A stretch of DNA of 29,328 nucleotides, taken from a virus. Both the position numbers and the translations under genes were made by a program. The stretch's first letter is position 1. Each line of letters begins with the position of its first letter. Shown here piece by piece: positions 10,187 through 14,583 of the stretch. The notes under the pieces are model-generated. The model searched no databases. It had not been told where the DNA came from and was given only the letters and a program-made list of their open reading frames with translations. The stretch is from positions 1-29,328 of IMG/VR virus record IMGVR_UViG_3300028392_000229; one strand, written 5' to 3'.

Positions 10187-10211
10187 TAAGAACGAACGAA
10201 GTGAGTTCTTA
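10187..10211. other. Hairpin TAAGAAC/GTTCTTA
   Basis: A 7-bp stem with an 11-base loop. It abuts the next hairpin and shares base 10211 with it. Confidence 0.45.
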
Positions 10212-10229
10212 GATGAACGAAGTTCATCT
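10211..10229. other. Hairpin AGATGAAC-GAA-GTTCATCT
   Basis: A perfect 8-bp stem with a 3-base loop, immediately after the previous hairpin. Both share the GAACGAAGT word. Together they could act as a terminator zone for the leftward gp26 transcript. Confidence 0.5.
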
Positions 10230-10316
10230 TTACTAAGAAACAATATAATAACCCGATATGATAAATGAACAGTTACGGGTTTGATTAGAAGAATGGTAGT
10301 TGTGATTTCTTAGTAA
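10230..10316. repeat. Long-range inverted repeat around the end of the gp26 frameshift extension
   Basis: TTACTAAGAAA (10230-10240) and TTTCTTAGTAA (10306-10316) are perfectly complementary over 11 bp. Between them a second stem, AACCCG (10250-10255) with CGGGTT (10276-10281), nests inside. The right arm lies within the last codons of the extension, so the structure may terminate or protect the leftward transcript. Confidence 0.45.
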
Positions 10317-10515
10317 CTTCCATATTACTATCAATAATTTTCTTAATTTCTTCACGTTCCTCAGTGGACATGTTTAATACATCTTCATATGAAACACCAC
10401 CACGCATGTACCAACTCATACTAAGAGCACTTTTCTTAATATCGGTACACTCTTTTTCCATATTATCTATCAGCTTCTTTACGCCTTCGTGGTCAAGGCG
10501 CAGAAGCCTTATCCG
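10285..10515 (-). CDS. -1 frame extension of gp26 (gp51-position, tail assembly chaperone-like)
   Basis: This 76-codon frame is open from the slippery site at the end of gp26 to a TAA at 10285. It reads R-I-R-L-L-R-L-D-H-E and then contains ALSMSWYMRGGVSYEDVL, MSTEEREEIKKII and a C-terminal KSQLPFF, a compact helical domain. In T4-like gene order gp51 (baseplate hub assembly) follows gp26, and I assign it to that position only. The first internal ATG (10461) would give 58 aa but has no Shine-Dalgarno. The coding frame is instead continuous with the frameshift site, so the main product is probably a 351-aa gp26 fusion made by -1 slippage. Confidence 0.65.
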   Translation of the reverse strand, partial: RIRLLRLDHEGVKKLIDNMEKECTDIKKSALSMSWYMRGGVSYEDVLNMSTEEREEIKKIIDSNMEVTKKSQLPFF

Positions 10516-10521
10516 AAAAAA
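10473..10521 (-). promoter_or_regulatory. Programmed -1 frameshift signal: TTTTTTC plus two-part stem-loop
   Basis: On the minus strand TTTTTTC (10521-10515) is in the correct phase (T TTT TTC) two codons before the gp26 stop. A 7-base spacer (GGATAAG) follows. Then GCTTCT (10507-10502) pairs with AGAAGC (10478-10473), and inside it CGCCTT (10500-10495) pairs with AAGGCG (10487-10482) around a 7-base loop. The heptamer, spacer length and stem are those expected of a -1 frameshift stimulator. Confidence 0.75.
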
Positions 10522-11339
10522 TCAGATGTGTTTAAAGTGAAAGGTTGTTCGTAGTCATTTTGACAATGAATGCATTTAATTTTCAGTGGTTTAATTTCTG
10601 TTTGTGCTTTTAAATTTGCATTATAATCTCTAATAGCAATGTAAGTATCTCTATCACAATTCTGTAGGTAATCCAGTATATATTCTCTTTCCTCTACAAA
10701 AGCACTAGGTGTTTTTACATGAGTAATAGCTTGTGATATAATACGCATTGTAACATCAGTAATAAATTTCAATGCCTGTTGAGTTTTACTTATCCTAACA
10801 GTTTCATCTTCTTCTTTGTCTACCTGAAGAAACATTCGTTGTGCTTCTATTTGTCCAGTACCTGCATCATTCATTTCTTTATATGTCAGTGGTCTAAATT
10901 TAATTGACAGGTCATTTAAAACTAATTCTTTATCATAGTCAGCAGATTTAAGTTGACTTAGTATACCTATCAGATTAACAGCATATTCTGCAATTTCTTT
11001 ACAACTTGGGCATTCTGATGCTACACTCATGTCATTACCGCCCGCTGCCGAACGTATTGCTATTAATATAGCATCTAAGTCAATGCTATTAATTGCCCAT
11101 GGGTCTTTGATATCAGGAATACAGCTTTTTATAATGTCTACCATTGCGGTTCCGTTATATAGCGCATCTGGTGTTTTTGAGCTAATTTCATCGATAGCAG
11201 TCATTGGATAAACTGCTAGTTCTCCAGACTCTGGTATAGTTAATACAGAAGGTGAATACATTTTACCACCGCTAGGTAATTTCAAATAAATTGAAGGTCT
11301 ACGAAAATATTGCTTTAGTGGGTTGTTTTGAATGGTCAT
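10509..11339 (-). CDS. 26: gp26-like baseplate hub subunit
   Basis: A 276-aa protein. The opening FRRPSIYLKLPSGGKMY, then VYPMTAIDEISSKTPDALYN and DPWAINSIDLDAILIAIR, is the hallmark of the T4 baseplate-hub gp26 family. A split zinc ribbon is present: CPSC near residue 103 and CIHC near residue 258. It is longer than T4 gp26 (about 208 aa). The zero-frame product ends TSDFFG at a TAA (10509-10511). The preceding TTTTTTC lets a fraction of ribosomes continue for 76 more residues. The start at 11339 has AAGGA 5 bases upstream (AAGGATAACAATG). It is transcribed leftwards from a late-type promoter at 11391-11399, through a leader holding a terminator-like hairpin. Confidence 0.85.
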   Translation of the reverse strand: MTIQNNPLKQYFRRPSIYLKLPSGGKMYSPSVLTIPESGELAVYPMTAIDEISSKTPDALYNGTAMVDIIKSCIPDIKDPWAINSIDLDAILIAIRSAAGGNDMSVASECPSCKEIAEYAVNLIGILSQLKSADYDKELVLNDLSIKFRPLTYKEMNDAGTGQIEAQRMFLQVDKEEDETVRISKTQQALKFITDVTMRIISQAITHVKTPSAFVEEREYILDYLQNCDRDTYIAIRDYNANLKAQTEIKPLKIKCIHCQNDYEQPFTLNTSDFFG

Positions 11340-11409: not shown

Positions 11410-14400
11410 ATGCCACAAAATTTAGATCCAGATGCAATGGAGAAATTCAATGAAACAATACGTGAATTGAATAACACCATGCCCTCATTTATTTTGGGCA
11501 TTAATCAAGTGATAGGTGTTGCTTCCGGGTCAGTTAAAGCGTCTGATGCATTAAAAAAATTAGCAGATAGTGCTAAAGAGGGCACTGCATATGAACAAGC
11601 ACAACTAGCCGCAAAAAAGAAAAAAGATATAATAGACGCAAATCGTGAAAATGCACAGACACTAGCAACTAATTCATTGAAACAGTTTGGATTAGGTTTA
11701 GCTAGTACAACTGCTGAATTCTCAACATTTGGTAAAGTTGTAGGTGGCGCCGGAGACGCCGCACTAGCTTGGGGTAAAAACTTAGGTATGCTTGGTTTGG
11801 CAATGGGTGTATTAATTAAAGCTACTACACTAGCCGCAGAAGCCGCAATGAAACAAGCTGATAATGTTTTAAAGGCTAAAGACGAATTATCTAAAATGGG
11901 TGTAGCTGGTGGAATGACAGCTAAACAGTTACTAGAAATGGGTAATGCAGCCGGTTACTCATCTGAGAAGTTAGGAGTAATAGCTAAAGCTTCAAGATCA
12001 ATGGGCACTGATATCATGTCCCTTGGTGGCAATGTAAAACAAAGCGTGAAAGCATTTGGTGATATGACTAAAGTTGGTGATGACGTATATAGTTCATTTC
12101 AACGTTTAGGTGTGTCACAGGAAGAACTAACACAGAACCAAGCTGACTATGTAAAATTACAAGCATCATCCGGTAGAATGATAACAGAGCAAATGAAGCG
12201 TGATGGTAGTTTAAAAGAAGCTTCATTGGAATATACTAAAAACTTATTAGAATTAAGTGCTATCACTGGTAAGTCAATGAGTGAATCGAAAAAAGCTATG
12301 GAAAGAGCCCAAGCTAGCGCCGACATTACGATACATACGCAAAACTTAGAGGATGAAAGAAATAAATTAATGGCAACCGGTAATGCTGCCGACAAAGAAA
12401 AAGCAAAACAAATTCAAAAAGAATTAGATGCTAATAAAGCTATGTTGTTAGCGGCAGAGGCTACCGGTGATGCACAATTCTTATCAGCGCAACAAAGTAG
12501 AATTGCAACAGGAGCATGGACAGAATCAAGTACAGTATTATTAAGAACATTACCTAATTATGAAGAACTTCAACAAGGGTTAAAAGAGGGAACACTAACC
12601 CAAGCTGATTATATGAAAGCTATCGCTGAAGGTACAAAACGACAGAGAGAAACATTAGGACGTGCCGCCGTCTTTGATAAAGAAATGGGAGACAAACAAG
12701 GTCTTTCATTGGCTTTGTTACAGAATTCAGCAAAAGTATTAGGTAAGGATCTCCCAGGAGCATTGAAAGAAGCGCAAACCGATATTAAAAATGCCGCAGA
12801 AGGTAAAGGAACTGGTTCAGGAACCGATCCTGCAGAGATAGCAAGAAACAAAATGACAGAGCTTACCCGCACTATATCTGTGGGTCTAGATGAATTATTA
12901 GGTAAGGCTAGTCCATTCATACAAGGATTTAATGGAGTAACTACGGCAGCTACATTATTGACAGGTGCTGCCATGGCAGCCGCGCTTTATTTAGGTAAAT
13001 TAGCTGTACAATTGAAGATAGTTGATGCATTGACTGCCGCAAAAAATATAGGTGGTTCAGGTCTTCCGGGTGGTGGTTCAGGTCTTCCGGGTGGTGGTAA
13101 AGGTGGTCCAGATACAAAGACTTCTGAAGGTCATTATAAAGATGAAAAAGGTCGTTGGAGAGATTCTTCAGGCAGGTACAGTAAAGCTCCACCTGTTGAA
13201 GCCCCGAGCACTGGTAAAGCACCAGGTGGAGCCGGCAGGTTTGCCGGAGCTAGCAAGGCTATGGGTGCATTAAGTAAACTTGTTGGACCTCTTGCTGGAT
13301 TAGTGTCAATTGGATCTGGAGCTATGAATGCTACTGAAGGTTATAATGATGCTGAAGATCAAGTTAACAAAGGTGAAATAACAAAAGAAGAAGGTACTGT
13401 CAAGAAAAGTGAAGCTGTTGGTAAAGGTATTGGTGAAGGATTAGGTGGCGCCGGAGGTGCCGCATTAGGAGCTATGATTGGAACAGCTATATTCCCTGTA
13501 GTAGGTACAGCAATAGGCGCCGCACTTGGTGGATGGTTAGGCTCTAAAGCCGGAGAATCTGTGGGTGAAGCTGTTGGTGAAACTGTAGGTAAAGAGATTG
13601 CTAAAAAACCTGTCGTTGCAACAACTGCCGCAAGAGCGTCAGCTAGCTCAAAACCATCCTCTGGTTCATCTTCCGGCTCATTACCTAGTTCATCTGGTTC
13701 ATCTTCCGGTTCATCACCTAGTTCATCTGGTTCATCTTCCGGCTCATCGGCTTCACCTGTAGTTGCTACAATGGCATCTAGTTCAGCAGGTGGTGATGAT
13801 AGTAGCAAAGGACCAGCAGATGTTCCAGTAGCAAAACCAACTGGTGGTAAAGATGGCGACGTTCAAATGGGTCAAGAAGTAAAAATAGGAAATGAAATCC
13901 ATAAAGGTGGAACAGTTTCTTGGAGAACTAATAATCCGGGTAATGTTTCTTTTGGTGGGTTGTCTAAGCAATACGGCGCAATAGGGGCGTGGAAAAAACT
14001 TGACGGAGATGCTCAACAACGAAGTACTGGTATTGCCATCATGCCATCGATAGAAGCCGGTGATAATTTAAAGATGGCATTATGGCGTCGCCCAATGTAC
14101 ATTGATAAAACAATTGATGAAGGTGTAGCCCAATGGACTGGTACAACTGGATTAGGCTCAGGTTATGCAAAAGATTTAGCACAAGCTGCCGGTGCATCCA
14201 TGAGTACTGTGATAGGTACATTAACGGACCCTCAATTAAAAGCAATGATTACAAAGCAAAGAGCATGGGAAGGATTTAAACCCGGTTCAGTAGTTAGTGC
14301 ATCACTAGAAGGTATCGCAGAAGGTCCAGAATCTGGTTACGCTGCCATATTACACGGTAATGAAATTATTAAACGATTAACTAAAGATTCAATATTAGAT

Positions 14401-14583
14401 AAACTTGCTAATACCCCAGCAGGAGATATGTTTGGTACCAGTGCGGGATCTAATACTAATTCAGGTAATAATGAAATGGTCGATCTAATGAAAGAATTTT
14501 TAGAAAAAATGGATGACTTAATTGATGCACAATCTGATAGCAATGATATACAAAGTGAATTATTAGAGTATTCAAAAGTTTAA
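11410..14583 (+). CDS. Tail tape measure protein with embedded NNPGN lytic-like domain
   Basis: A 1057-aa protein, probably the tail-length ruler (position of T4 gp29). It has hydrophobic segments at about residues 122-145 and 511-535, long helical Ala/Lys/Glu-rich stretches between them, and a glycine zipper at about 674-727 (GGAGGAALGAMIGTAI, GAALGGWLGSKAG). A Ser/Gly-rich linker of three 33-base repeats follows (about 749-781). Residues about 831-960 resemble a phage muramidase-type domain: WRTNNPGNVSFGG, a 'STGIAIMPSIEAGDNL' block, then TIDEGVAQW and LTDPQLKAMI. The C-terminal motif SGYAAILHGNEIIKRL matches the 'A-x-LHG-x-E' seen near the end of many tape measures. A late promoter and GGGAAAA precede it. 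Confidence 0.78.
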   Translation: MPQNLDPDAMEKFNETIRELNNTMPSFILGINQVIGVASGSVKASDALKKLADSAKEGTAYEQAQLAAKKKKDIIDANRENAQTLATNSLKQFGLGLASTTAEFSTFGKVVGGAGDAALAWGKNLGMLGLAMGVLIKATTLAAEAAMKQADNVLKAKDELSKMGVAGGMTAKQLLEMGNAAGYSSEKLGVIAKASRSMGTDIMSLGGNVKQSVKAFGDMTKVGDDVYSSFQRLGVSQEELTQNQADYVKLQASSGRMITEQMKRDGSLKEASLEYTKNLLELSAITGKSMSESKKAMERAQASADITIHTQNLEDERNKLMATGNAADKEKAKQIQKELDANKAMLLAAEATGDAQFLSAQQSRIATGAWTESSTVLLRTLPNYEELQQGLKEGTLTQADYMKAIAEGTKRQRETLGRAAVFDKEMGDKQGLSLALLQNSAKVLGKDLPGALKEAQTDIKNAAEGKGTGSGTDPAEIARNKMTELTRTISVGLDELLGKASPFIQGFNGVTTAATLLTGAAMAAALYLGKLAVQLKIVDALTAAKNIGGSGLPGGGSGLPGGGKGGPDTKTSEGHYKDEKGRWRDSSGRYSKAPPVEAPSTGKAPGGAGRFAGASKAMGALSKLVGPLAGLVSIGSGAMNATEGYNDAEDQVNKGEITKEEGTVKKSEAVGKGIGEGLGGAGGAALGAMIGTAIFPVVGTAIGAALGGWLGSKAGESVGEAVGETVGKEIAKKPVVATTAARASASSKPSSGSSSGSLPSSSGSSSGSSPSSSGSSSGSSASPVVATMASSSAGGDDSSKGPADVPVAKPTGGKDGDVQMGQEVKIGNEIHKGGTVSWRTNNPGNVSFGGLSKQYGAIGAWKKLDGDAQQRSTGIAIMPSIEAGDNLKMALWRRPMYIDKTIDEGVAQWTGTTGLGSGYAKDLAQAAGASMSTVIGTLTDPQLKAMITKQRAWEGFKPGSVVSASLEGIAEGPESGYAAILHGNEIIKRLTKDSILDKLANTPAGDMFGTSAGSNTNSGNNEMVDLMKEFLEKMDDLIDAQSDSNDIQSELLEYSKV
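13654..13752 (+). repeat. Three 33-base tandem repeats (Ser/Gly linker)
   Basis: Three copies of a unit beginning at 13654, 13687 and 13720. The first copy is diverged at its start. They encode an 11-residue Ser-rich unit (SSSGSSSGS-x-P) joining the glycine zipper to the lytic-like domain. A shorter 21-base duplication (GSGLPGG) lies upstream at about 13053-13096. Confidence 0.8.

Follow-up and report, generated by a model that had tools for sequence, protein, structure and literature searches.

Background

In the phages lambda (G/GT) and P2 (E/E'), a -1 slip near the end of a short gene gives rise to a long form that carries a C-terminal extension. According to the G/GT model, the short form coats the tape measure protein while the long form recruits the tube subunits. 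A downstream stimulator is common, though not universal, among tail chaperone pairs made by frameshifting. For T4-like phages, Vladimirov et al. 2022 reportedly found that frameshifting is conserved in several groups, T4 itself using the separate genes 26 and 51. Here we analyzed the end of the gp26 homolog in the IMG/VR virus record IMGVR_UViG_3300028392_000229, positions 1 to 29,328 (29,328 nucleotides, referred to as the window), where a -1 frameshift joining gp26 to a downstream frame had been proposed from the sequence alone (the initial annotation). Judged from conservation and sequence comparison, it is very likely that programmed -1 frameshifting at this site makes a short and a long tail assembly chaperone (TAC).

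According to the relevant passages of PMC12846349, which cite Vladimirov et al. 2022, polyT slippery sequences are present in the TAC-N genes of T4-like phages. Other T4-like phages instead possess two genes, one short and one longer and fused, as stated in a passage of PMC10274946 citing the same study.

Results

The slip site at the end of gp26

On the minus strand, the gp26 frame ends with ACA TCT GAT TTT TTC GGA TAA, in which T TTT TTC lies in the gp26 phase and GGA is the sole codon between this heptamer and the TAA stop. After a 7-nt spacer, a two-part stem follows, with outer arms GCTTCT (10507-10502) and AGAAGC (10478-10473) and inner arms CGCCTT (10500-10495) and AAGGCG (10487-10482). 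The 50 nt 3' of the heptamer have a predicted folding energy of -19.3 kcal/mol (RNAfold). The -1 frame is open from C10515 for 76 codons with its stop at 10285, predicting a short product of 276 aa and a long product of 275+76 = 351 aa. The earliest start codon inside this extension is an ATG at 10461, its codon 19, and at the gp26 stop there is an ATA and no ATG. Heptamer, spacer, stem, open frame and product sizes had all been part of the initial annotation, as had the claim that the extension's own start is merely an internal ATG, and each was verified in the sequence or by translation (coordinates in Table 1).

Besides T TTT TTC, gp26 contains four in-phase XXXYYYZ sites. The nearest one, T TTA AAC, was considered as a fusion site and rejected, since the -1 frame runs straight into a TGA (CAC ATC TGA) and a fusion is impossible from there.

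In a chance test, 96 open reading frames (ORFs) of at least 100 aa on both strands of the window and of 13 other stretches (including L004, whose sequence is the same as part of the window) were scanned for an in-phase XXXYYYZ within the last 15 codons together with a -1 extension of at least 55 codons. This arrangement was found in 12/96 ORFs, each one of them a gp26, and in 0/84 of the remaining ones. The combination of heptamer and extension is beyond chance.

Conservation of the heptamer among relatives

The IMG/VR gp26 set consisted of the best 80 of 85 loci, three of which end before the gp26 stop, leaving 77. Of these 77, in which the gp26 end is intact, 75 have an in-phase slip heptamer (68 T TTT TTC, 7 A AAT TTT), and neither heptamer is present in the other two, L059 and L060. 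The -1 extension comprises at least 55 codons in 72 of the 75 heptamer-bearing loci, and the remaining 3 run off the contig. With gp26 of cyanophage S-RIM8 as query, the best 80 of at least 598 cyanophage-type loci were taken, and T TTT TTC is located one codon before the stop in 80/80, followed by an extension of at least 58 codons in 78/80 (2 run off the contig). The heptamer was likewise found in all 14 deposited jumbo phages chosen from 65 records (12 T TTT TTC, 2 T TTT TTT), with extensions of about 70-80 codons. Finally, 42 further loci were found via the in-frame long protein. Two of these were the records of L059 and L060 again, and among the 40 left T TTT TTC occurs in 37/37 loci containing the gp26 end, while 3 hold an extension fragment alone. 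Some contigs may be common to several of these locus sets. Among named phages, heptamer and extension are present in S-RIM8, Aeromonas phage 65.2 and phage SRB7757. The initial annotation had presented the signal as a feature of one phage; instead, it is widespread among IMG/VR relatives, cyanophage-type loci and jumbo phages. The alignment of related phages that it had called for revealed a near-universal heptamer and a stem conserved in the window clade.

The distance between heptamer and stop is one codon in 68/85 jumbo genes and 3 to 12 codons in the others. The slip site is fixed while the position of the gp26 stop drifts by lineage. At T TTT TTN sites, the codon preceding FF ends in T in 59/59 unique jumbo and 76/76 unique cyanophage-type genes, compared with a T share of third positions of 35% and 42% overall in those genes, an agreement that follows from the heptamer search itself and is informative only as so few relatives lack the heptamer.

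In a distant clade (L072-L077, L079), whose gp26 shows 28-33% identity to that of the window, A AAT TTT replaces T TTT TTC close to the stop.

Selection on the extension

Substitution rates were calculated from 37 unique window-clade sequences, pairs more than 35% different being excluded. In the -1 frame, dN/dS is 0.41 for codons 1-18, which lie ahead of the first ATG of the window, and 0.16 for codons 19-76, while reading the same DNA in the two remaining frames gives 1.02 and 1.76. A value of 0.17 was obtained for the final 100 codons of gp26. Within the window clade, purifying selection acts on the extension in the -1 frame only. Synonymous divergence is smaller in codons 1-18 (0.39 vs 0.61), which is expected if the stem is constrained. 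The extension of the window is homologous to those of Atu_ph07 and Phosso from the first residue onwards, and its AlphaFold model is all-helical with a mean pLDDT of 87. When the extension of the window was searched by itself against Pfam and PHROG, the hits were weak or had no known function, and they were not used.

The downstream stem

In 34 unique window-clade sequences, the mean predicted fold was -17.4 kcal/mol, compared with -8.5 kcal/mol in random synonymous-codon versions (mean z -3.09; 33/34 below -1). When the named stem was examined in a 29-sequence alignment, 86.2% of the cells were paired, as against 40-51% when the stem was slid. The covariation score was 0.245 vs 0.184 in shuffles, with 0/500 shuffles as high, and two of five covariation measures were not above the shuffles (both-side changes 3 vs 2.8; further pair types 16 vs 15.9). 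The predicted stem, presumably a stimulator of slippage, is conserved in the window clade and weaker in distant clades.

Relatives with two genes

The two loci lacking the heptamer, L059 and L060, derive from G001 (60231-62153) and G002 (99412-101334), each of which contains two PF12322 genes in tandem. The extension profile matches in frame within the upstream copy (E 6.7e-31 and 1.2e-30). This upstream gene encodes 350 aa, contains NYCEYFRVRLLYMQPEEI and has the junction DNA TAT TTT CGG GTT AGA CTA TTG, so that EYF/RVRLL in the in-frame relative can be compared with TSDFF/RIRLLRLDHEG predicted for the window (the slash marks the junction). The downstream copy is a short gene lacking the extension, and the slip heptamer was found at the gene end of neither tandem copy. 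As the fusion is found in frame in one tandem copy and has the junction that had been predicted, these heptamer-less exceptions support the frameshift reading. The proteins encoded at this locus are identical between both records, which might therefore represent one lineage.

In the phylogenetic tree, both tandem copies fall within the well-supported frameshifting clade (100/99), their placement inside it being poorly resolved and their branches long. T4 gp26 and gp51 group with the cyanophage types, across a 100/100 branch from the clade of the tandem copies. We read the tandem pair as an independent conversion of the frameshift into two genes, parallel to T4 26/51. It is likely that frameshifting has been replaced by gene duplication at least twice independently, once in the divergent T4 genes 26/51 and once in the tandem genes of the uncultured jumbo-phage lineage G001/G002, the products becoming two genes. 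If true, two separate conversions suggest that ordinary gene expression is able to reproduce the ratio of short to long form that slippage sets, and both would constitute natural controls for the value of this ratio. Among the 20 listed of 62 long-protein matches in deposited phages, 15 are in two pieces and 5 stop before the extension.

Profile comparisons with T4 gp26 and gp51

Each of the following hhalign figures comes from one single comparison without a database search. T4 gp51 and gp26 are paralogous (98.7%, 193 columns; column-shuffled controls peak at 3.5% in 40 shuffles). The match of gp51 to the cyanophage fusion (98.9%, 186 columns) runs through the frameshift junction to the end of the fusion, while the match of T4 gp26 extends approximately to the slip site (99.5%). 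For gp51 and the cyanophage extension a value of 94.5% was obtained, with column-shuffled controls peaking at 5.5% (60 shuffles). The cyanophage and jumbo fusions match with 99.1% over 277 columns and their extensions with 71.8% over 34 columns. An alignment (A3) that combined full-length rows with rows of the extension only was of poor quality, and no claim is based on it.

In the PHROG search, the S-RIM8 extension matches phrog_634 (baseplate hub assembly catalyst, E=3.2e-30), and no phrog_634 match was obtained for the extension of the window. Unlike the window, T4 has two divergent genes, 26 and 51, with neither an in-phase heptamer near the end of gene 26 nor such an extension. In the sections concerned, the 2010 T4 tail review counts gp26 and gp51 among the hub assembly chaperones and describes gp51 as essential, with unknown function (PMC3004832). 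Our findings support gp51 as the in-frame equivalent of the frameshift product. The initial annotation had taken the frameshift for an oddity on a structural hub gene, which does not agree with this listing of both proteins.

Protein family and neighboring genes

The gp26 homolog of the window matches PF12322 (T4_baseplate) with 49.9 bits at a cut-off of 24.5 and phrog_150 (baseplate hub) with E=7e-13, and its AlphaFold model has a mean pLDDT of 87. It adjoins a probable tape measure gene, which is transcribed divergently. The 1057-aa product of this neighbor has weak tape-measure matches (phrog_167, 1.6e-8; phrog_794, 1.4e-6), and the equivalent neighbor in RaK2 is annotated as 'similar to' tail tape measure protein. 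Beyond it, a T4-type portal gene is located. A 524,565-base IMG/VR contig is identical to the window across the 6828 nt compared, suggesting that the window probably originates from a jumbo phage. Neither the Rfam scan nor the tRNA scan of the window gave a hit.

Table 1. Features at the gp26 locus of the window
Feature	Position	Strand	Remarks
gp26 homolog, putative short chaperone form (G-like, TAC-N)	10509..11339	-	276 aa; PF12322, phrog_150
Slippery heptamer T TTT TTC in the gp26 frame	10515..10521	-	conserved in relatives
7-nt spacer, overlapping the gp26 codon GGA and stop TAA (10511-10509)	10508..10514	-	
Two-part stem, presumed slippage stimulator	10473..10507	-	fold, synonymous-codon controls (34 unique sequences), pair counts
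-1-frame extension, C-terminal domain of the predicted long form (GT-like, TAC-NC)	10285..10515	-	76 aa + stop
Divergent neighbor, probable tape measure protein (expected client)	11410..14583	+	1057 aa; weak PHROG matches, RaK2 note

About 55 nt past the stop of the extension, the minus strand of the window contains a perfect 8-bp hairpin, AGATGAAC-TTC-GTTCATCT (10211-10229), which might mark a transcript end. In L059/L060, the short gene is followed by a similar hairpin, AGATGACC-TTC-GGTCATCT.

The 50 listed of 482 BFVD matches of gp26 are members of the same family plus uncharacterized or unnamed phage proteins. Foldseek matches of gp26 with E values from about 1e-9 to 1e-5 include uncharacterized proteins of further giant phages, among them Erwinia phage Special G, the Ralstonia phages phiRSL1, RSF1 and RP12 and Tenacibaculum phage pT24. 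These giant-phage proteins are candidates for unrecognized tail chaperones.

Discussion

The -1 frameshift joining gp26 to a chaperone-type C-terminal domain, as originally proposed, is strongly supported by conservation, frame-specific selection, the stem and the in-frame relative. The signal, its conservation, the selection on the -1 frame, the in-frame fusion of the relative and the profile match to T4 gp26/gp51 are seen in the sequences, and slippage, its rate and the chaperone function are inferred from them. Most ribosomes on gp26 would stop at TAA and release the short chaperone, while a minority would slip back by one base on T TTT TTC, aided by the stem 7 nt downstream, and read the 76 additional codons into the long form with its additional helical domain. 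By homology, both forms may act as tail assembly chaperones, the functional counterparts of lambda G/GT, the short form coating the tape measure protein and the sub-stoichiometric long form recruiting tube subunits. T4 would solve the same problem with its two genes, 26 for the short and 51 for the long form, and one relative of the window phage with its tandem pair.

Several observations weigh against this explanation or limit its reach. The locus sets were best-of-list selections (80 of 85 and 80 of at least 598), which tilts the counts toward closer relatives. Stem folding is less pronounced in 28 distant jumbo sequences, with a mean z of -1.25 (17 below -1) and 6 of the 28 less stable than their own controls (z above 0), and also in 76 cyanophage-type sequences, with a mean z of -1.84 (55 below -1). 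The link between gp51 and the window runs through the cyanophage type, since the direct matches of gp51 are weak, with 9.5% to the jumbo extension alone and 72.2% over 55 columns only to the jumbo fusion. A Foldseek search against the PDB yielded no match at E<=0.001 for gp26 or for the extension. Moreover, a -1-frame ATG is found within about 12 nt of the stop at 23/63 unique jumbo, 1/28 further jumbo and 35/76 unique cyanophage-type junctions, and Pseudomonas phage Cygsa01 (L100, 2809-2982) has no XXXYYYZ near the gp26 end and instead an overlap of the gp26 stop with the start of the extension (TAATG), which suggests that this lineage switched from frameshifting to stop-start coupling.

The last two points, together with the existing annotations, would be in line with the extension being a separate small gene that has its own start or is translated by termination-reinitiation at the gp26 stop. 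The extension appears as a small ORF of its own in 12 of the 14 deposited jumbo records, is unannotated in 2 and is joined to gp26 in none, and the S-RIM8 record has a separate small ORF as well. Where an ATG lies close to the stop, reinitiation could indeed add to the extension. However, neither ATG, GTG nor TTG is present near the stop at 32/63 unique jumbo, 21/28 further jumbo and 34/76 cyanophage-type junctions, and only 1/119 early internal start codons (37 sequences) is preceded by a Shine-Dalgarno-like match. In the window itself, with its ATA at the stop, the first in-frame start is not reached before codon 19, although the codons ahead of it are selected and match other phages from residue 1. 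A separate gene would also leave the conserved heptamer without a reason to exist. As a general explanation, own-start and reinitiation models were rejected on the selection data and the start codon counts at the junctions, and we regard a separate gene as very unlikely. A frameshift mimicked by a sequencing error or by decay of the gene end is hardly credible, because the arrangement recurs in many independently assembled contigs and deposited isolates and the extension is under purifying selection, even though six-T homopolymer runs are error-prone in principle.

Another alternative accepts the frameshift as real and assigns gp26 and its long form to the structural hub subunits instead of the tail assembly chaperones. 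Databases do label the family as base plate protein or baseplate hub, no solved structure matches, and the T4 tail review states, in the part concerned, that genetic studies favor gp26 in the hub (PMC3004832). A short form accompanied by a long form of identical N-terminal sequence, next to a probable tape measure gene, is, however, the pattern of tail assembly chaperones, and later papers, in the passages concerned, cite Vladimirov et al. 2022 for the T4-like ones (PMC10274946, PRFect; PMC12846349, the Adele paper). We consider hub subunits unlikely. Frameshift-made tail assembly chaperones would give the most plausible job to a gene that is databased as baseplate hub and to a downstream ORF that is usually left hypothetical.

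Joined coding sequences (CDS) would correct the 14 deposited jumbo records. Separate-gene annotations of the extension exist in deposited phages at L097 3232-3369, L086 3828-4037, L095 2867-3043 and L084 3834-4064, where the small genes are labeled baseplate hub assembly catalyst or hypothetical protein; these are probably each part of a joined CDS with gp26.

Comparison with known systems

The window site has the same way of working as lambda G/GT and P2 E/E', to which it is likened by mechanism and not by sequence. The likeness to lambda G/GT drawn in the initial annotation holds in this sense, membership in one sequence family being no part of it. Unlike these two systems, gp26 of the window is divergent from the probable tape measure gene and not directly upstream of it. 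The TAC-N genes of Vandenendeviridae and Andersonviridae likewise carry a conserved polyT -1 frameshift at their end and have the extension annotated separately, and differ in belonging to other phage families and in their slip motif GTTTTT (passages of PMC12846349). For T4-like Klebsiella phages, a supplementary table of frameshift-suggesting peptides is mentioned in the passage of PMC13119998 concerned.

In the literature searched, which did not cover the text of Vladimirov et al. 2022, no report of a frameshift in this jumbo clade or of a second two-gene conversion was found. Closest to our case are the T4-like tail assembly chaperones, likewise described, as far as this study is represented in its citing papers, as a short form and a long form with a C-terminal domain (Vladimirov, Gautam and Davidson, Virology 2022). 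Frameshift-made T4-like tail chaperones are already known as a kind; what is possibly new is the extent among jumbo phages, including the conserved stem, together with the A AAT TTT variant and a second independent two-gene conversion. One frameshift signal is common to cyanophages, Aeromonas phage 65.2 and jumbo phages.
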